The notes under the pieces are model-generated. The model saw nothing but the letters and a program-made list of their open reading frames with translations, had not been told where the DNA came from and did no database searches. DNA of 64,000 nucleotides from Halorussus litoreus. Its GTDB lineage: Archaea; Halobacteriota; Halobacteria; Halobacteriales; Haladaptataceae. The stretch lies in NCBI RefSeq assembly GCF_003382685.1, contig NZ_KZ859504.1, forward strand, positions 17,265 to 81,264, read 5' to 3'. A program made the translations under genes and the position numbers. Below, one piece after another: positions 8,209 to 27,414 of this stretch (positions within the stretch are counted from its first letter, which is position 1; each line of letters opens with the position of its first letter).

Positions 8209-9348
8209 ATGCACGACGACGACACGCCCAACCGGGCTCTCGACCGCCGAACGGTACTGACCGCCGGGGCAGTCGCCCTCGGGACCGGACTGGCCGGCTG
8301 TGCCGGCGGCGACGGCACGGAAACCGAGACGGAGGCGTCCGAGACGACGACGGCAGGCGAGACGACGGAGAGCGGGACGACCACGGAAGACGAGACCACG
8401 ACGGACGCCGAGACGACCACGGACGCCGAGACGGTCGCGCTCTCGGAGCCGGTCGAGCCGTCCGAGTCGGACGAGTGCGCGGTCTGTGGCATGACGGTCG
8501 CCAACTTCCCGGACTGGAACGGCCAACTCACGCTCGATTTCGACGGCGGGAAGCGCGCGTACGCCTGCTCGCCGGGGTGTCTGGTCACCCTCGCAGCGAA
8601 GCCGGGCACCTTCGTCGACGGCGCGACCGTCGAGGACATCGCGTCGGCGTGGGCGCACGACCGGGCGACGACCGACCTGATAGACGCGACGGCCGCGAGC
8701 TGGGTCCTCGACCCGAACGACGACCGGGCCGGCGGGCCGATGAGCGGAAACCCGCTCCCGTACGCCGAGGTCGCCGACGCCGACAGCTACGTCGGCGAGT
8801 ACGACGACGTCACGAAACACGCCGTCGTGGGATTCGATGCGTTCGACCCGTCGCTGGCCAACACGTATCGCGGCCGATTCCTCCCGGACGTGAGCGGCCC
8901 GTCGGTCCTCGACGCCGTCGAGGTTCCCGAGGACGCGACCTGTCCGGTGTGCGGGATGAAATCGGCGCAGTTCCCCGACGGCAACGCGCAGGTCGCGTTC
9001 GAGGACGGCGGTCGGGAGTACCCCTGCTCGCCGGGGTGTCTCGGCGCGTTCTACGCCGACACCGCCACGTTCGCTGAGGGCCGCGAGCAGGACGGCATCG
9101 TCTCGACGTGGGTCCACGACTACGCCACCGACGAGTTGACCGACGCGCTCGAAGCGTGGTTCGTCCTCGAAACGAAGGGCGGGCGCGTCTCCGATTTGCC
9201 GATGATGTCCAATCCGGTCCCCTACGCCGAGCGGCCCGACGCCGAGAGCTACGTCGAGCAGTACGACGACCGCACGACCGACGACGTCGTGCGACTGACC
9301 GACTTCACGACCGAACTCGGCGAGCAGTACCGGGGCAAGCACTACTGA
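8209..9348 (+). CDS. nosL: NosL-type copper lipoprotein with two NosL domains
   Basis: The 379-residue protein has a Tat-like leader (DRRTVLTAG), a lipobox LAGC near residue 31, and a Thr/Glu/Ser/Asp tether to about residue 85. Two similar domains follow. The first has CAVCGMTV and YACSPGC, the second CPVCGMKSA and YPCSPGC. Each domain therefore carries a CxxCGM motif plus a second cysteine pair. NosL proteins bind Cu(I) through a CxxCGM region and deliver it to the Nos machinery. The gene is divergent from nosD across about 140 bp. Most bacterial NosL proteins have one domain, so the tandem duplication is notable. Confidence 0.88.
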   Translation: MHDDDTPNRALDRRTVLTAGAVALGTGLAGCAGGDGTETETEASETTTAGETTESGTTTEDETTTDAETTTDAETVALSEPVEPSESDECAVCGMTVANFPDWNGQLTLDFDGGKRAYACSPGCLVTLAAKPGTFVDGATVEDIASAWAHDRATTDLIDATAASWVLDPNDDRAGGPMSGNPLPYAEVADADSYVGEYDDVTKHAVVGFDAFDPSLANTYRGRFLPDVSGPSVLDAVEVPEDATCPVCGMKSAQFPDGNAQVAFEDGGREYPCSPGCLGAFYADTATFAEGREQDGIVSTWVHDYATDELTDALEAWFVLETKGGRVSDLPMMSNPVPYAERPDAESYVEQYDDRTTDDVVRLTDFTTELGEQYRGKHY

Positions 9349-13899: not shown

Positions 13900-14274
13900 T
13901 CAGACCACCGCTCCGACCACCGCGGTCGTCAGGCTCGCCCCGACCATGCCGCCAGCCCCGACGCTGCCGAGGACCATCATCGCGCGCCGGGAGTCGGCCT
14001 CCGACCAGTCCGAGCGCCCGCCGATGTACCGCTGGAAGTTCTCGATGCCCCGGCCCGCGAACACCGACCCGGACCAACCGAGTATCGAGAAGCCGAAGAC
14101 GAGTGCGGCGACCGCGAACACCTTCTCGCTGGCGAACCGGACCGATTCACCCGAGAGGACGACCAACGGGACCGCAACCCCGGCGAGGACAGCGCCGAGC
14201 GCGAGCGCGCGGCCGATCAGCATTGCATAATCGCGGAGCGTCGGCGACGATTCGTCCGCCGAGTCCGACGCCAT
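13900..14274 (-). CDS. conserved haloarchaeal membrane protein (124 residues)
   Basis: The protein has an acidic cytoplasmic start, two membrane helices near residues 20-65, a hydrophilic loop (GRGIENFQRYIGGRSDWSEADSRRAM) and a glycine-rich C-terminal helix. I do not recognise a functional family. The ATG at 14274 lies three bases after the stop of the permease gene, so it is cotranscribed with the peptide ABC operon. A link to transport is only positional. Confidence 0.75.
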   Translation of the reverse strand: MASDSADESSPTLRDYAMLIGRALALGAVLAGVAVPLVVLSGESVRFASEKVFAVAALVFGFSILGWSGSVFAGRGIENFQRYIGGRSDWSEADSRRAMMVLGSVGAGGMVGASLTTAVVGAVV

Positions 14275-14277
14275 CGG

Positions 14278-15237
14278 TCAGTCCACGGTCTCGCGCATCC
14301 GCGGGTCGAGCGCGTCGCGCATCCCGTCGCCAAGCAGGTTGAACCCGAGGACGGTGATGGCGAGGAACAGTCCCGGGAAGAACGACCACCACCAGTCGCC
14401 GGTCAGCAGGCCCAGCTCGACGCCGTTGGCCAGCATCAGGCCCCACTCGGGCGTCCCGGCCTCGGAGCCGAACCCGAGGAAGGAGAGAGCCGCGATGTCG
14501 ATGATGGCGAGGCCGAAGTTGAGCGTCGACTGGACCGTGATGGGCGCGAGGCAGTTCGGCAGGATGTGGCGCACCAGCACCCGGGGGTCTTTCGCCCCGA
14601 GCGCCTCGGTGGCCTCGATGTACTCGTCTTCGAGCACCTTCAGCGCCGCCCCGCGGACGACGCGGGCGAATCGCGGGGTGTAGACGAGCGTGAGCGCGAT
14701 GACCACCTTCCAGAGACCGCTTCCGAAGATGGCGACCAGCGCGAGCGCGAGCAGGAGGCTCGGGAACGCCAACAGTACGTCCATCGTCCGCATGATGACG
14801 TTGTCGGTGATGTCGCCGTAGTACGCCGCGATGATGCCGAGGCCGACCCCCAGCACCGTCGAGGCCGCGACCGTGATGGTACCGAACTTGAGCGCGATCC
14901 ACGCGCCGTACAGCACGCGCCGGAAGATGTCGCGCGACTGGATGTCGGTCCCGAACGGGTACGCCCACGTGCCGTAGTCGGTGACGACCTGCGCCTCCTT
15001 CGGGCCGAGCCAGCTCGGCGGCGCGACGTTGGGGTTCGTGCCAATCTGGCTGGTGGTGACCGACTGGAGGTCGATGAACAGCCGTGCGTACAGGCCGATG
15101 GCCAACATGCCGAAGATGATGGCCAGCCCCGCGACGGCGAGTCGATTCGACAGCAGTTGCGAGAGGAACGGTGAGGCCCGGAGTCGCTCGACGACGCCGC
15201 GGTCCCCCACGTCCTCGGTTTCAGTTTGCGTGCTCAT
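14278..15237 (-). CDS. peptide-type ABC permease, DppC/OppC family (system 1)
   Basis: The 319-residue inner permease has a cytoplasmic N-terminus and a BPD_transp_1 domain. Family features include PFGTDIQSRDIFRRVLYGAW near residue 95 and EATEALGAKDPRVLVRHILPN near residue 215, which contains the EAA-like loop that contacts the ATPase. It pairs with the permease at 15234-16247 through a four-base overlap. The likely substrates are di- or oligopeptides, or other solutes handled by this family; sequence alone cannot decide. Confidence 0.92.
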   Translation of the reverse strand: MSTQTETEDVGDRGVVERLRASPFLSQLLSNRLAVAGLAIIFGMLAIGLYARLFIDLQSVTTSQIGTNPNVAPPSWLGPKEAQVVTDYGTWAYPFGTDIQSRDIFRRVLYGAWIALKFGTITVAASTVLGVGLGIIAAYYGDITDNVIMRTMDVLLAFPSLLLALALVAIFGSGLWKVVIALTLVYTPRFARVVRGAALKVLEDEYIEATEALGAKDPRVLVRHILPNCLAPITVQSTLNFGLAIIDIAALSFLGFGSEAGTPEWGLMLANGVELGLLTGDWWWSFFPGLFLAITVLGFNLLGDGMRDALDPRMRETVD

Positions 15238-16247
15238 TGTTCGATCCTCGGGTCGAGGTAGGAGTAGGTGATGTCCACGAGCAGGTTCACCATCGTGAAC
15301 AGGAACGCGAACGTCAGCACGGTGCCCTGCACGATGGGGTAGTCGCCGACCTGAATCGCGCGCACCAGCAACGTGCCGATGCCCGCGATGCCGAAGACGG
15401 TCTCGGTCAGCACCGCGCCGCCCAGCAGGGAGCCGAACTGGATGCCGATAACCGTCACGACCGGGATGAGTGCGTTCTGGAAGCCGTGTTTCATCACGGT
15501 GATCTTCGAACCCTGACCCTTCGCGCGGGCGGTCCGCATGTAGTCCTGGCGGATGACCTCCAGCATCGACGACCGCATCATCCGCGAGATGAGTGCCATC
15601 GAATAGATGCCGATGACCAGCGACGGGAGCAACAGATGCATCGCGGCCGACTGGAACGCCGCGAAGTTGCCGCTAATGAGCGTGTCGAAGGTGATCACGC
15701 CGGTTATCGGTTCGATGCTGAACTCCGAGGCGATGCGACCGCTCGCCGGGAACCAGCCCAGCACCTGCGCGAACAGCAGGATGACGAGCGGGCCGCTCCA
15801 GTAGATGGGGACCGAGATACCCGTCAGCGCGCCGATTCGGGTCACGTGGTCGCTCACCGCGTCCTGTTTGACCGCGCCGAGCAGTCCGGCCGGAATGCCC
15901 AGCAGGATGCCGAACAACTGTCCGTAGATGGCCATCTCCAGCGTGACCGGCAGCTTGTACCGGAGCACCTCCGTGACAGGCTGGCCGCGCTGGATCTGGT
16001 AAGACTGGCCGAAGTCGAGCTGAACCGCCTCGAAGAGGAAGCGGCCGTACTGCACCCAGATGGGGTCGTTCAGACCGAGCTCCGTCCGAATCTGGCGGAC
16101 GAACTCCTCGGACGCCCGCTGGCCCGCGATGACCCGCGCGGGGTCGCCCGGCGAGAGGTGCAGGATGGCGAAGACGAACGTCGCCACCCCGAACAGCACC
16201 GGGACGAGGAGCAGTAGCCGCTTTATCACAAACCGCTTGGAAATCAT
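15234..16247 (-). CDS. peptide-type ABC permease, DppB/OppB family (system 1)
   Basis: The 337-residue permease begins with the typical FVIKRLLLLVPVLFGVATFV helix and LSPGDPARVIAG, and has the EAA-like loop DYMRTARAKGQG near residue 235. Six membrane segments are evident. It overlaps the DppC-like gene by four bases. A T6 run (16275-16280) lies between it and the binding-protein gene upstream, which could set different expression levels. It is the membrane channel half of system 1. Confidence 0.92.
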   Translation of the reverse strand: MISKRFVIKRLLLLVPVLFGVATFVFAILHLSPGDPARVIAGQRASEEFVRQIRTELGLNDPIWVQYGRFLFEAVQLDFGQSYQIQRGQPVTEVLRYKLPVTLEMAIYGQLFGILLGIPAGLLGAVKQDAVSDHVTRIGALTGISVPIYWSGPLVILLFAQVLGWFPASGRIASEFSIEPITGVITFDTLISGNFAAFQSAAMHLLLPSLVIGIYSMALISRMMRSSMLEVIRQDYMRTARAKGQGSKITVMKHGFQNALIPVVTVIGIQFGSLLGGAVLTETVFGIAGIGTLLVRAIQVGDYPIVQGTVLTFAFLFTMVNLLVDITYSYLDPRIEQ

Positions 16248-16359: not shown

Positions 16360-18099
16360 TCACTCGTTCAGCGAGACGACGTTGAGGAACGGCCCGGCGA
16401 TGGGCGCGATCTTGAAGCCTTCGACGTGGTTGCCGACGCCGCGGAGCGCCTTGGCGTGGTTCATGGCGACCCACGGGACTTCCTCGTGGAAGATCTCGGC
16501 GGCCTGTTCGTACTTGGGCGCGCGCGCGCTCTCTTCGTAGCTCGTCTGGGCCTCCTCGACGAGGTTCATGTACTCGGTGTTGGCCCACGCGGCCGCGTCG
16601 AGCGTGTTGATGCCGTCGTGGTTGTCCGGGTCGATCCAGTCCTGCCCGTCGGGCACGGCGTCGGTCGAGACGCCGGGGTGGAGCAGTGCGTAGTGGAAGT
16701 TGTCCGGGTCGGCGTTGTCGGTCATCCAGCCGAGGAAGCACGCGTCGTGCTTGTACGTGTCCGTGTACTCGAGGAACGGGTCGAACGGCTGCTGGTTGAT
16801 GTTGACCGTGATGCCGACCTCGTTGAGGTTGGACTTGACCGTCTGGGCGGCCTGGATGGGCGAGGGGTTGTAGGTGCGGGGGTTCTTGAAGGTGGCGAGC
16901 TCGAACTCGAAGCCGTCGCCGTAGCCCGCCTCTTCGAGCAGCGACTGGGCCTGCTCGGTGTCGTACGGGTACGGGTCGAGACTGTCGTTGTACCCCATCA
17001 CGCTCTCGGGGATGGGCTGGCTCGCCTCCGAGGCGATGCCCTGGAAGATGGTGTCGACGATGGCCTTCGTGTTGATGGCGTAGTTGACCGCCTGCCGGAC
17101 CTTCTTGTTGCGGAACGGCTCGAACCGCGCCATGTTGAACGCCATGTAGCCGACGTTGATGCCGGGCATCGAGACGAGTTCGGCGTTGTTCGACTCCTCG
17201 ACGATCTGCGAGGAGCCCGCACCGAGGCCGTCGATGATGTCCGCGCCGCCCGAGTCGAGCGTCTGGGCGCGCGAGTTGTTCTTGCCGACGACCGTGAACA
17301 CGACCTCGTCGACCTTCGGGACTTCGCCCCAGTAGTCGTCGTTGGCCGACAGTCGGATGCGCTCGTTACCCTGATCCCAGTTGTCGAGTTCGAACGGGCC
17401 GGTCCCGACCGCGTTCTCGTTGAGGGTGTCGCCGTACTCCTGGATGGCGGCCTCCGAGTGGACTCGCGAGCAGAACATCGCGAGGTTCGGGATCATCGGA
17501 GCGTACGGCTTCGCCAGCGTGATCTCGAGCCCGTAGTCGCCCGTCTTCTCGACCGAGTCGATGGTGCCCAGCGAGTACGAACCGTACGCCGACACGTAGT
17601 CGTCGCCGGGGTAGTACTCGTGGTCGGGATTGGTGAACCGCTCGTAGGTCGCCACGTAGTCGTCGGCGGTGAACTCCTCGCCGTTGTGGAACTGGACGCC
17701 CTCCCGGAGCGTCATCGTGATGGTCGACCCGTCGACGTTGTACTCGGTGGCCAGTCCGGAGACGATGGACGTCGTGCCCGGATCGAACTGGACGAGGCCG
17801 TTGTAGATCTGGTTGGTGACCTTCGCGACCTCGCCGCTGGTGGTGCTCTGGAAGTCGAGCGACCCCGAGGAACTCCCGCGGGCGTACGTGAGGGTCGTCC
17901 CGCCGCTCTCGGAATCGTCCTCGGCGGTCGTCTCCTCGCCGCCCATCTCCTCGGTGGTGTCGTCGCCACCGCTCTCCTCGGTCGTGTCTGTCGACTCCTG
18001 GGTATCGTCGCCGGTACATCCGGCCAACGTGGCCGCGGCCGCCGCACCGCCAGCCGCCTTCAGGAAGCTACGCCGCTTGAGACTGTCGTCTGGCGCCAT
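16360..18099 (-). CDS. peptide-type ABC substrate-binding lipoprotein (SBP_bac_5), system 1
   Basis: The 579-residue protein has a Tat leader (KRRSFLKAAGG) and lipobox LAGC near residue 30, followed by an acidic tether (ESTDTTEESGGDDTT) to about residue 65. The rest is a family 5 binding protein: LREGVQFHNGEEFTADDYVATYERF near residue 130, GTGPFELDNWDQGNERIRLS near 230 and VRQAVNYAINT near 345. It captures the solute outside the membrane for the permeases downstream. The ATG at 18099 is chosen because it begins the signal. It has a close paralogue immediately upstream. Confidence 0.93.
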   Translation of the reverse strand: MAPDDSLKRRSFLKAAGGAAAAATLAGCTGDDTQESTDTTEESGGDDTTEEMGGEETTAEDDSESGGTTLTYARGSSSGSLDFQSTTSGEVAKVTNQIYNGLVQFDPGTTSIVSGLATEYNVDGSTITMTLREGVQFHNGEEFTADDYVATYERFTNPDHEYYPGDDYVSAYGSYSLGTIDSVEKTGDYGLEITLAKPYAPMIPNLAMFCSRVHSEAAIQEYGDTLNENAVGTGPFELDNWDQGNERIRLSANDDYWGEVPKVDEVVFTVVGKNNSRAQTLDSGGADIIDGLGAGSSQIVEESNNAELVSMPGINVGYMAFNMARFEPFRNKKVRQAVNYAINTKAIVDTIFQGIASEASQPIPESVMGYNDSLDPYPYDTEQAQSLLEEAGYGDGFEFELATFKNPRTYNPSPIQAAQTVKSNLNEVGITVNINQQPFDPFLEYTDTYKHDACFLGWMTDNADPDNFHYALLHPGVSTDAVPDGQDWIDPDNHDGINTLDAAAWANTEYMNLVEEAQTSYEESARAPKYEQAAEIFHEEVPWVAMNHAKALRGVGNHVEGFKIAPIAGPFLNVVSLNE

Positions 18100-18214
18100 A
18101 GGCCATGTTCCTCGGACCTCCCACATAAGTATGCCGAACCTAAACCAGACCAAAATAAAACGATAACTCGATATTGAGGTACCGTTTCGTCGACCGACGA
18201 AAGAACGAATCGAG

Positions 18215-20083
18215 CTATCCTTGAATCCGCACCCGTTTGAGTAGCGGCCCGCTGATGGGCGCAATCTGGAAGTTCCCTATCCGGTTGGCGACGCCGCGGA
18301 GCTCCTCGGCGTGGTCGATAAACACCCACGGCGCTTCGTCGTGGGCGATCTGACCGGCTTCCCGATAGAGCTCGGCGCGCTGGTCCTCGTCGAGGGTACC
18401 CTGGCCTTCCTCGACGACCTCCATGAACTCGGTGTTGGCCCACGCCGCGCGGTTGGTCGTGTTGAACCCCTCGGTGTCGAAGCTCACCCAGTCCTGGCCT
18501 TCGGGCACGTCCTCGACGTCGATACCCGGATGCAACAGCGCGTAGTAGAAGTTGTCCGGGTCGCCGTTGTCGGTCATCCACCCGAGGAAACACGCGTCGT
18601 GCTGTCCCTGCGAGGTGTACTCCAGGAAGGGGTTGAACGGCTGCTGGTTGACGGTGACCGAGATGCCGACCTCGTCGAGATTCGACCGGACCGTCTGGGC
18701 GGCCTGGATGGGCGAGGGGTTGTAGGTGCGGGGGTTCTGGAACGTGGCGAGTTCGAACTCGAAGCCGTCGCCGTAGCCCGCCTCGTCGAGCAGCGACTGG
18801 GCCTGCTCGGGGTCGTGCGGGTAGGGGTCCAACTCCTCGTTGTAGCCGAGCACCTGCTCGGGAATGGGCTGGCTCGCCTGCACCGCGATACCCTGGAAGA
18901 TGGTGTTGACGATGGCCTCGGTGTCGACGGCGTAGCTGATCGCCTGCCGCACCCGTCGGTCGCGGAACGGCTCGAATCGCGCCATGTTGAACGCCATGTA
19001 GCCGATGTTGATCCCTTGCGTTCGGATCAGTTCGGTCGCGTCGGAGTTATCGACGATCTGAGACGACTGGGCACCCAGACCGTCGATGATGTCCGCACCG
19101 CCCGAGACGAGCGTCTGGGCGCGGGAGGTGTTCTGCCCGATGGCCGTGAACACCACCTCGTCGACGAACGGCCCCTCGCCCCAGTAGTCGCCGTTGGCCG
19201 ACAGGCGGATACGCTGGTTGCCCTGATCCCAGTTCTCGAACTGAAACGCGCCCGTCCCGACCGGGTTCTGGTTCAGGTCGGTGCCGTACTCCTGGATCGC
19301 CTGCCGGGAGAGCACGCTGGAGGCGAACATGGCCAAGTTCCGCAGGAACGGTGCGTACTGCTGGCTGAGTTCGATAGTGAGGCCGTACTGGTCGTCGCCC
19401 TCCGTCGGAGTCACCGTCTCGGTGCCGCCAGCGGCGGTCTCCGTTCCGTCCTCCGCAGCGGTCGTCGTCCCGGCCGCCGTCTCGGTGCCGGTACCGGTCG
19501 TCGTTTCCTGATCGACCATCGCGGCCTCGGTGGTCGTTCCCCCGTCCGTCTCCGTTCCGCCAGCGGTCGTTCCCGCTCCGCCGCCGGCCGCCCCGCCCGG
19601 TTCGACGCTCTCGACCCAGTTACCCAGCGTGAACGGACCGTACGCCGAGATGTATTCGTCGCCCGGGTAGTACTGGTAGTCCGAGTCGGTGAACCGCCGG
19701 TAGGTGGCGATGAAGTCGCTGGCGGTGAACTCCTCGCCGTTGTGGAACTGCACGCCCTCCCGAAGCGTGAGGGTCGCCGTCGTCCCGTCGAGCGAGTACT
19801 CGGTTGCCAGCCCCGCCTGCAGCGAGGTCTGGTTCGGCTCGAAGTCGATGAGCGTGTCGTACATCTGGTTGATGACCTTCACGTCCTCGCCGCTCGTAGT
19901 GTTCTGCGGGTCGAGCGTGCCCGAGTCGTTCCCCCGGGCGTACGTGACGGTCCCGCCCTCCTGGTCCTGCACGTCGTCCATACTCCCTGTTCCCACGTAC
20001 CCCGCGACGGACGCCGACGCGGCCGCCCCGCCGGCTGCCTTCAACAAGCTTCGCCTTGAAACGGATGTGTCGTTTGAAGTCAT
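18215..20083 (-). CDS. second SBP_bac_5 binding protein with lost lipobox Cys and internal tether insert
   Basis: The 622-residue paralogue of the neighbouring binding protein keeps a Tat leader (SRRSLLKAAGG). The expected lipobox reads SVAGY, with Tyr29 (TAC, 19997-19999) in place of Cys (TGC), so lipid anchoring should fail. The usual tether after the leader is only about ten residues. Instead, residues of about 161-230 (19394-19603) form a Gly/Thr/Glu-rich stretch that looks exactly like a lipoprotein tether, inserted between NWVES and YGLTIELS, where the paralogue has seven or eight ordinary residues. All other family motifs are intact. Secretion as a free protein, or loss of function, are both possible. 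The ATG at 20083 is preferred over an upstream in-frame TTG. Confidence 0.9.
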   Translation of the reverse strand: MTSNDTSVSRRSLLKAAGGAAASASVAGYVGTGSMDDVQDQEGGTVTYARGNDSGTLDPQNTTSGEDVKVINQMYDTLIDFEPNQTSLQAGLATEYSLDGTTATLTLREGVQFHNGEEFTASDFIATYRRFTDSDYQYYPGDEYISAYGPFTLGNWVESVEPGGAAGGGAGTTAGGTETDGGTTTEAAMVDQETTTGTGTETAAGTTTAAEDGTETAAGGTETVTPTEGDDQYGLTIELSQQYAPFLRNLAMFASSVLSRQAIQEYGTDLNQNPVGTGAFQFENWDQGNQRIRLSANGDYWGEGPFVDEVVFTAIGQNTSRAQTLVSGGADIIDGLGAQSSQIVDNSDATELIRTQGINIGYMAFNMARFEPFRDRRVRQAISYAVDTEAIVNTIFQGIAVQASQPIPEQVLGYNEELDPYPHDPEQAQSLLDEAGYGDGFEFELATFQNPRTYNPSPIQAAQTVRSNLDEVGISVTVNQQPFNPFLEYTSQGQHDACFLGWMTDNGDPDNFYYALLHPGIDVEDVPEGQDWVSFDTEGFNTTNRAAWANTEFMEVVEEGQGTLDEDQRAELYREAGQIAHDEAPWVFIDHAEELRGVANRIGNFQIAPISGPLLKRVRIQG

Positions 20084-20106
20084 CCACCCCACCAATCAAT
20101 GATTTT

Positions 20107-20115
20107 GGATAAAAG
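20107..20115 (-). promoter_or_regulatory. TATA box for the second binding protein
   Basis: CTTTTATCC on the minus strand lies about 25 bp before the ATG at 20083, the spacing expected for a leaderless haloarchaeal transcript. Confidence 0.55.
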
Positions 20116-20287
20116 CCTACGGGAGCGGATTGGTCGGTGGGTCGGTTGGTTCAACTGTGATGTCTCGCCGCAAGCATTGCCGGGAGATCGGCGGCGCCTC
20201 TGAAGACCGGTTGGGATCTGTCGAGAAGCCCAGAACGGGCAGGACGCGACGACGATAGCGGGCCTCGGCTCCGGAAGTAGGAACTGA

Positions 20288-24561: not shown

Positions 24562-27057
24562 TCACTCAGGCTGATCGTAGAGGTGACACGCCGCGGGATG
24601 GGCGTCGTCCTGCAGGACCGGGTTCTTGCGCTCGCAGACGCTCTCGAAGTGCTCGCCGAGCAGCGACTCGGCCGCCTCCCAGTCGCCGTCCGCGAGGTTG
24701 TCGAACGACTCGGCCACGATCTCGCGCGGGCGGCCCGTCGGCTCCGGGTCGAACAGCCGGTCCCAGAGGACGGCCTGGAACGCCTCGGCGGAGGCCTCCG
24801 GCCTGCCTCCGTCCGCGGCAGCAGCGGCCTCCGCTTCGGCCCGGCCACTTCCGGCGGCCTCCTCCCACGCCGAGTCGAGGTCGATGCGGCGGTCCTCCAC
24901 GCGCTCGCGGTAGTTCATCACCTGCCGGTAGGCGTCCTGTTCGACGTCGAGATCTTCCGGTGGGATGATCTTCGGACACCGCGTCCGGAAGTTACAGCCC
25001 GACGGCGGGTCGATGGGCGAGGGCACGTCGCCTTCGAGGATGACCCGGTCGTCGGTGTCCACCCGGGGATCGGGCTCGGGGATCGCCGAGAGGAGCGCCT
25101 GCGTGTACGGATGCTTGGGGTCGGCGAACAGTTCGTCGGTCTCCGCGACCTCGACGATCTCGCCGAGGTACATCACCGCGACGCGGTCGGAGATGTGCCG
25201 GACCACGCTCAGGTCGTGAGCGATGAACAGGTACGTCAGTCCGAACTCCTCCTGGAGGTCTTCGAGCAGGTTGAGGATCTGGGCCTGCACCGACACGTCG
25301 AGCGCCGACACCGGCTCGTCGGCGACGATAAAGTCGGGGTCGACCGCGAGTGCGCGCGCGACGCCCACGCGCTGGCGCTGCCCGCCGGAGATCTCGTGTG
25401 GGTAGCGGTCGTACTGGCCCTTCTCCAGCCCGACGGCGTCCATGAGTTCGAGGACGCGCTCGCGTCGCTGTTGTTTCTTCGACGTGTCGCCCTCTGGGGG
25501 TTCCTCGGGCAGGTCGTGAATCTTGAGGGGCTCGGCGATGATCTGGCCCACCGTCATCCGCGGGTCGAGGCTAGAGAGGGGGTCCTGGAAGATCATCTGC
25601 ATGTCCTTGCGCTTCTCCCGCAACTCCTCGCGGTCGAGCTCAGAGAGGTCCGTCCCCTGGAACACGATGGTGCCGTCGGTCGGCTCCTCGAGGTGGAGCA
25701 GGGTCCGGCCAGCGGTGGACTTCCCGCAACCGGACTCGCCGACGAGGCCGACCGTCTCGCCCTCGTAGATGTCGAAGCTCACGCCGTCGACCGCCTTCAC
25801 GCTCTCGATGTCGCCGGCGAGCCACTCGTCGAGCATCCCGTCGGCCCGCGAGAAGTGCTTTTTCATCCCCTGGACTTCGAGCAACCGGTCGCCGATCTCG
25901 TGGTCGCTGGTGGTGATGCCCTCGCGGTCCTCACCGTACTGGCTCTGGTCGAAGTCTTCGAGGACGCACTTCGCGCGGTGGTCGACCTCCGCGGGGCCGT
26001 GCTGGAGGTTCGGAATCTCGCCCTCGGTACACTCCGGCTGGGCCCACGGACACCGCGGCGCGAAGTGACACCCCTCGGGCATGTCGATGAGGTCGGGAAC
26101 GCTCCCCTCGATGGGGGTAAGTCGATCTTTGGTCTCGTCCGGGATCGACTCCAGCAGCGTGTACGTGTAGGGGTGGCTCGGGTTGTGGAAGATCTCGTCG
26201 ACCGGCCCGACCTCGACGATGTCACCGGCGTACATCACCGCGACCCGGTCGCAGGTCTCGGCTACCACGCCGAGGTCGTGGGTGATGAACAGGACCGACA
26301 TGCCGAGGTCGTCCTGCAGGTCGTTGATGAGGTCGAGGATCTGGGCCTGAATCGTCACGTCGAGCGCGGTGGTCGGCTCGTCGGCGACGAGCAGTTTGGG
26401 CTGGCACGCCAGTGCGATGGCGATGAGCACGCGCTGGCGCATCCCGCCGGAGAACTCGTGGGGGTACTCGTCGACGCGCTCGGTGGGTTCGGGGATGCCG
26501 ACCTGCTCCAGCATGTCGATCGTGTCGCGCAGCACCTCCTCGGAGACCTCCTTGCCGCCGAGGCTCGGCGCGATCTCCCGGACCGCGCTCCACCACGAGT
26601 CCTTCCGGCGGCCGCCGTACTGGTGGAGGCGCAGGCTCTCGGCGACCTGCTCGCCCACGGTCAGCGCGGGGTTGAGCGAGGTCATCGGGTCCTGGAAGAT
26701 CATGCTCATCTCGCCGCCCCGGATCTCGCGCATCGGTCCCTCGGGCGTCGACAGCAGGTCGACGTACCCCTCGTCGGGGAAGACGTACTCGCCGATGCCC
26801 TCTGCGTGGCGCTCGGCGAAGTCCTCGACCAGCGGCGGGTGGGAGAACCGGGCCTCCCCGTCGACGACCTCGCCGGGGTCGTCGACCAACTGCATCAGCG
26901 AAAGCGCGCTGACGCTCTTGCCGGACCCGGACTCGCCCACGAGCCCGACGGTCTCGCCTTCCCGGATCGTGAGGTCGAAGTCGTCGACGGCCTCGACCTC
27001 ACCGCGCTCGGTGTTGAACTGCGTTCGCAGATTCGAGATCGACAGTAAGTCGCTCAC
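24562..27057 (-). CDS. fused double ABC ATPase, DppD-DppF type (system 1)
   Basis: The 831-residue protein joins two oligopeptide ATPases. Domain 1 (residues ~1-345) has [16 protein letters not shown] and [12 protein letters not shown], followed by a Cys-containing tail ([15 protein letters not shown]). Domain 2 (residues ~395-725) has [28 protein letters not shown] and tail CNFRTRCP. About 110 extra C-terminal residues (Ala/Glu-rich, ending with further cysteines) resemble the usual C-terminal tail of haloarchaeal DppF. GTG at 27057 is the start; the frame upstream enters a repeat-rich leader. It belongs functionally with the permeases at 14.3-16.2 kb, from which it is separated by the iron cassette. 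Confidence 0.9.
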
Positions 27058-27239
27058 AATTACCAGAAAATGTTGCGCGCGCGGGCAAAAACCTTCCCAC
27101 TTTTGCCCCGGTGGAAGCCTTCCCAGCACTGCACGGTCGTTGGGCGTCCAGGCTGCGACTCGTCTGCTCAAATCGCCGCTGTGGTGTTTCTGCGCAGCGC
27201 GGACTCCTCGCTTCGCTCGTCGTCGTTGCGCTTCGCAGA

Positions 27240-27254
27240 AACGTCCTGACGGAG
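27240..27254. repeat. 15-bp copy of the tRNA-Arg 3' end
   Basis: AACGTCCTGACGGAG at 27240-27254 is identical to 27340-27354, the 3' acceptor/T-stem part of the tRNA-Arg gene plus flank, exactly 100 bp away. An inverted ACGTCAGGACGT lies near 27281. This may be an attachment-site remnant or a trace of local duplication. Confidence 0.6.
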
Positions 27255-27341
27255 TCCTCACGAGCGAAGCGAGTGAGGGCACGTCAGGACGTGACTGACG
27301 CACCGACTGCTGAGCGAAGCGAAGCAGTCGAAAGGAATGAA

Positions 27342-27414
27342 CGTCCTGACGGAGATTTGAACTCCGGTCCCTGGCTCCGCAAGCCAAGAGGATAGTCCAC
27401 TACCCTACCAGGAC
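27342..27414 (-). tRNA. tRNA-Arg (anticodon GCG)
   Basis: The 73-nt minus-strand sequence folds as a tRNA. The acceptor is GTCCTGG/TCAGGAC with discriminator G, the D-arm begins GGGTAGTGGACTATCCT, the anticodon stem TTGGC/GCCAG holds loop TTGCGGA (anticodon GCG, reading CGC/CGU), and the T-arm is CGGAG-TTCAAAT-CTCCG. CCA is not encoded. No intron is visible. Confidence 0.93.

Follow-up and report, generated by a model that had tools for sequence, protein, structure and literature searches.

A Tat-type dipeptide-binding protein paralogue of Halorussus litoreus that lacks the lipobox cysteine and is paired with a lipidated twin

The window, a stretch of 64,000 nucleotides of Halorussus litoreus, encodes a dipeptide-binding protein that is probably exported without a lipid, stands beside an anchored paralogue and acts as a soluble or loosely held collector of peptides. 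Comparison with relatives suggests that its lipobox cysteine was lost once, before the radiation of Halorussus, and that the low-complexity insert in the middle of the protein is a separate and later acquisition. The features discussed are the following.

18215 to 20083, minus strand: DppA-type solute-binding protein (SBP_bac_5) without the lipobox cysteine, 622 aa, ATG at 20083 (Pfam PF00496, E 8.7e-87)
19994 to 20083, minus strand: its Tat-type leader, SVAGYV replacing LAGC, with Tyr29 = TAC at 19997-19999 (Gly-Tyr in 15/15 genus orthologues)
19391 to 19597, minus strand: its insert, residues ~163-231, rich in Gly, Thr, Ala and Glu (alignment; pLDDT <50; repetitive DNA)
16360 to 18147, minus strand: tandem lipidated paralogue, LAGC and a 39-aa tether (Pfam; reading of leader and tether)
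15234 to 16247, minus strand: DppB-like permease (Pfam BPD_transp_1; NCBIfam DppB/Opp2B scores below their cut-offs)
14278 to 15237, minus strand: DppC-like permease (Pfam BPD_transp_1; NCBIfam DppC/Opp4C scores below their cut-offs)
13900 to 14274, minus strand: small DUF7268 protein after DppC (PF23930, E 2.6e-35; syntenic in most named loci)
24562 to 27387, minus strand: 941-aa ORF, a pair of ABC ATPase domains plus a pair of oligo_HPY regions (Pfam)

The protein, its leader and its operon

The leader of the window protein (MTSNDTSVSRRSLLKAAGGAAASASVAGYVG) carries a twin-arginine stretch, RRSLLKAAGG, as read from the sequence, while the Pfam TAT_signal model (E 0.001) matched the paralogue and left the cysteine-less copy unmatched. 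Codon 29 is TAC (19999-19997, with the A at 19998), and from Tyr29 to the start of the conserved domain (GTVTYARG) there are only ~14 residues, versus 39 in the paralogue. The ORF and codon reading thus bear out the initial annotation, which had described an SVAGY lipobox with TAC for Tyr29, a nearly absent N-terminal tether, and a neighbouring paralogue with a normal lipobox, a normal tether and no insert. The missing cysteine is present in 100% of the published TatLipo motif (PMC2945643), and a protein without it should, judging from the sequence, have no access to ordinary lipid anchoring. Haloarchaeal Tat lipoproteins, the tandem paralogue included, share the twin-arginine leader and the SBP_bac_5 domain with the window protein, which differs from them in the absent cysteine and the nearly absent tether. 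Substrates of the archaeosortase ArtA are defined by a PGF motif plus a hydrophobic segment; the window protein contains no PGF, and outside the leader its best 19-residue mean hydropathy is at most 0.89.

The family assignment is well supported by the Pfam model PF00496 (292 bits, cut-off 32.4), and the score against the NCBIfam DppA_dipep equivalog NF043070 is 222.7 bits, far from the curated cut-off of 1005; the protein is DppA-like and not the bacterial equivalog. The best Foldseek match is E. coli DppA (1dpe, E 2.1e-47). The haloarchaeal cell has no outer membrane, and in such cells binding proteins are expected to be anchored, which prevents their loss. E. coli DppA, of the DppABCDF importer, is instead periplasmic in a two-membrane cell; it shares with the window protein the fold, the equivalents of R383 and D436 and the adjacent permease genes, whereas the window gene has a lipidated twin next to it. 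R383 and D436 hold the ends of the dipeptide in E. coli DppA (PMC12136057) and align with R452 and D505 of the window protein, both invariant in the 47 sequences of our alignment (A2). Several binding proteins per Dpp permease are likewise known from Pseudomonas aeruginosa, where DppA1-5 are described as having distinct substrate profiles (PMC12728205).

The cysteine-less gene is followed by the lipidated paralogue, the DppB-like and DppC-like permease genes and the DUF7268 gene, whose product trails DppC in almost every haloarchaeal locus with this dpp-like operon and is likely part of the transporter. On the same strand, upstream of the cysteine-less gene, lies the ORF with two ATPase domains, likely a DppD-DppF fusion, which could power the transporter, an assignment to this permease suggested by its proximity. 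The DNA around the ATG of the cysteine-less gene (20060-20118, minus strand, ~ -35 to +24) is unusually conserved among the 15 Halorussus orthologues, with third positions of codons 2-8 alike in 14-15 of the 15 (9-15 for codons 9-20) and a TATA-like stretch ~30 bases 5' of the start codon; a leaderless transcript or an operator could give such a pattern.

Distribution of the cysteine-less state and selection

A search of 18 Halorussus genomes gave 15 orthologues, that of the window included; one of the other genomes (G012) has only the lipidated binding protein (L023), and two (G001, G008) have neither binding protein at E 1e-100. All 15 orthologues have Gly-Tyr at the place of the lipid-bearing cysteine, and in all of them the tyrosine codon is TAC. 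Two outgroup orthologues of the same family, one from Halomicrococcus and one (G023) that groups with the genus group containing Haladaptatus, have neither cysteine nor tyrosine there. This repeated occurrence in the genus, together with the cysteine-less outgroups, indicates a fixed state and no sequencing error: TAC is a single base from TGC, but an error at 19998 mimicking the loss is refuted by TAC in 15 of 15 genomes and its probability is practically nil. The initial annotation had also held that the anchor was lost by one base. This fits the codon (TAC against TGC) and does not fit the history, as lipidated proteins from the host family encode the cysteine by TGT (23/23) and the outgroups lack the tyrosine. 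With TGT also prevailing in the named loci (TGT 61, TGC 12, of 73 read), a direct step from TGC to TAC is not indicated.

The named loci (79) were gathered by a scan with two peptide patterns and are a non-random sample. Among them, the cysteine is retained in all 72 readable operons that have just one binding protein (counting L121 and L124, whose leaders, with a long upstream frame, were read by eye), and the five complete operons with two binding proteins invariably have the cysteine-less protein first and the cysteine-bearing one second. Two further two-protein loci, one ending at a contig end and the other partial, come from the same metagenome-assembled genome. In the named genomes the cysteine-less form therefore occurs only upstream of a second, lipidated binding protein. 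Through shared ancestry this pairing is one evolutionary event and not five independent ones, and it fits a loss of the anchor that may have been tolerated only beside an anchored twin. A simple loss of the cysteine gives no explanation for the strict conservation of the tyrosine.

In a maximum-likelihood tree built without the leader and insert columns, 17 cysteine-less proteins fall together across one branch, with a support of 85/91 in the careful tree and 97 in the quick one. They are nearest to single-copy, lipidated proteins from Halogranum, Halobium and Halegenticoccus, and their own downstream neighbours are more distant. Parsimony places one change of the cysteine at the base of this branch, so that a single loss appears moderately supported (85/91). 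A recent one-base loss is not borne out, since all 17 proteins on the branch (17/17) lack the cysteine, including 10 that are free of the insert. Along the same lines, the idea that the tether had ended up in mid-protein does not hold: relocation from the N terminus was considered and rejected, the two events lying apart on the tree with the insert as the later one.

A way to judge whether the unanchored copy is decaying is its selective constraint. By a simple counting method in three genome pairs with orthologous partners, its dN/dS was 0.160, 0.081 and 0.136, where the lipidated partner had 0.322, 0.229 and 0.288. Two of the five pairs, those involving G009, were left out of this comparison, the partner in G009 belonging to another clade (0.12 and 0.15 for the cysteine-less gene versus 0.56 and 0.57 for the partner). 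Sequence identity between genomes is also higher for the cysteine-less gene than for its partner in 89 of the 105 pairs, and in 40 of 55 after removal of the 4/15 genomes with non-orthologous partners. Values below those of the partner mean that this is no decaying copy, and by these measures purifying selection acts more strongly on it than on the lipidated neighbour. Ordinary relaxed evolution, in which a redundant paralogue with no particular role has a decayed anchor and a low-complexity insertion that is neutral, would agree with the presence of the paralogue and with the repetitive insert of variable length; we consider it quite improbable given the greater constraint (dN/dS 0.08-0.16), the presence of the gene in 15 of 18 genus genomes and the retention of the residues for the ligand ends.

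The window protein is not the only case. Nine SBP_bac_5 genes were found in the same genome, two of them cysteine-less, and the other one (L166:6366-8240) encodes a Tat protein 65% identical to a lipidated paralogue on another contig of the genome. Its family, conserved in the genus and the wider family (L168-L187, L196 and L197 among its members), comprised 30 inspected loci, one of them truncated; the 29 readable leaders lack the cysteine in 22 cases, typically reading xGTAAGQ, and have LAGC in seven. Like the window family it combines a Tat leader without cysteine with a lipidated paralogue in the same genome; unlike the window protein it keeps the low-complexity stretch after the leader, and the former lipobox is typically xGTAAGQ. 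In the 16 kb around the copy in the window genome there was no DppB or DppC match to the permeases of the window. Cysteine-less binding proteins thus recur in the group, which makes the window case less odd singly and more interesting as a pattern.

The insert within the binding domain

The low-complexity stretch of ~70 residues reported inside the binding domain was found again, at residues ~163-231; nowhere else in the protein do 40-residue windows attain 85% G/T/E/A/D/S/N/Q. It is carried by seven of the 15 genus orthologues and missing from the other eight and from both outgroups. The carriers lie within a nine-member subclade (100/98) whose two insert-free members, L012 and L013, are a sister pair (99/96). 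Two changes on the tree suffice, and a tree holding the seven carriers alone as a clade is disfavoured (AU p 0.028). The insert was thus probably gained inside Halorussus and lost again in L012/L013; with insert-free outgroups this is the simplest reading, the change counts alone being unable to separate gain from loss. The suggestion that an ancestral loop of a non-lipidated subfamily might be involved is half right: the subfamily is indeed non-lipidated, but the loop is derived.

AlphaFold2 with 47 sequences gave a mean pLDDT of 81.6 with a confident core, and values <50 at residues 166-225, with strands 157-162 and 234-239 on either side. The insert is therefore predicted to be a disordered surface loop on the turn of a beta-hairpin, in support of the earlier idea of a surface loop. 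Its DNA contains 19 repeated 9-mers, versus a mean of 3.3 in codon shuffles (a number reached by 0/2000), and a repeat search identified imperfect copies of 37 and 46 bases. Tandem Repeats Finder detected no array in the insert, the only one being in the tether of the paralogue. An origin as a copy of a known tether was tried and rejected: apart from the site itself, a DNA search of its own genome returned only weak, short matches (the best with E 3e-5 over 54 bases), and within the window there were only short matches, such as one (E 8e-4) to the tether of a lipoprotein encoded at 8209-9348. Local repeat expansion would fit its origin better than a copied tether.

The loop might work as a tether, its Thr, Glu and Gly holding the protein to the S-layer or carrying O-glycans in replacement of the lipid tether. 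The composition comes near that of the paralogue tethers (0.91-0.95 versus 0.97-1.00 G/T/E/A/D/S/N/Q, the insert being poorer in Glu and richer in Ala), and the O-glycopeptide candidates of Hfx. volcanii include a lipobox protein, DppA8 (PMC8241124). Such a role is possible and unneeded, because the insert-free orthologues are equally cysteine-less (8/15 in the genus plus both outgroups); with the probable loss in L012/L013 and the variable length over the aligned region (33 to 76 residues), we regard it as improbable.

Export, localisation and a possible role

A glimpse at the fate of such proteins comes from Hfx. volcanii, in which Tat lipoproteins with Cys-to-Ser changes were still exported, three being released and two remaining cell-associated and unprocessed (Storf et al., PMC2945643). 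By analogy, the window protein would be exported and either free or held by its leader. In the latter case the uncleaved Tat leader would serve as a membrane stem: with no cysteine there would be no lipid processing, and the protein would be anchored by other means and not released. The two unprocessed substrates speak for this, as does the conservation of the leader up to GYV in 14-15 of the 15 orthologues with divergence right after it. Yet the hydrophobicity of the leader is weak (Kyte-Doolittle mean of 1.06 in the best 19-residue stretch), and its small residues at -3/-1 (SVA, VAG) would also permit cleavage by signal peptidase I. The three other mutants, moreover, were released (PMC2945643). 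We think a leader stem somewhat unlikely, favour the free or S-layer-confined collector working with the shared permease, and estimate release to be about twice as likely as anchoring by the leader.

For this free or confined collector the sequence of events was probably as follows. The folded cysteine-less protein would be exported by Tat and would not become a lipoprotein. A second, anchored binding protein serving the permease may have made the anchoring of the upstream copy dispensable, and the cysteine would then have been lost in a single event that preceded the radiation of Halorussus. Strong selection would since have maintained the protein, soluble or loosely held within the S-layer, to collect short peptides, most likely handed on to the anchored twin or the permease that both share. 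The disordered insert would have grown later, in a single subclade of Halorussus, as repeats expanded locally within a hairpin turn. More speculatively, haloarchaea may have a two-tier capture, in which an unanchored dipeptide binder picks up its cargo in the medium or the space under the S-layer and delivers it to the anchored twin and shared permease; the split would have arisen at least twice (the window and xGTAAGQ families), with the variable disordered loop tuning retention. This broader proposal we hold only tentatively and would not bet on.

A search of the open-access literature gave no description of cysteine-less haloarchaeal binding proteins. The conserved and strongly selected loss of an anchor, found only beside an anchored twin and accompanied by a second cysteine-less family in these genera, amounts to a natural experiment on why anchoring matters. 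The cysteine-less proteins are natural counterparts of the Cys-to-Ser mutants used for the study of archaeal lipoprotein processing, and offer a natural test of whether free binding proteins are retained or shared by archaea.
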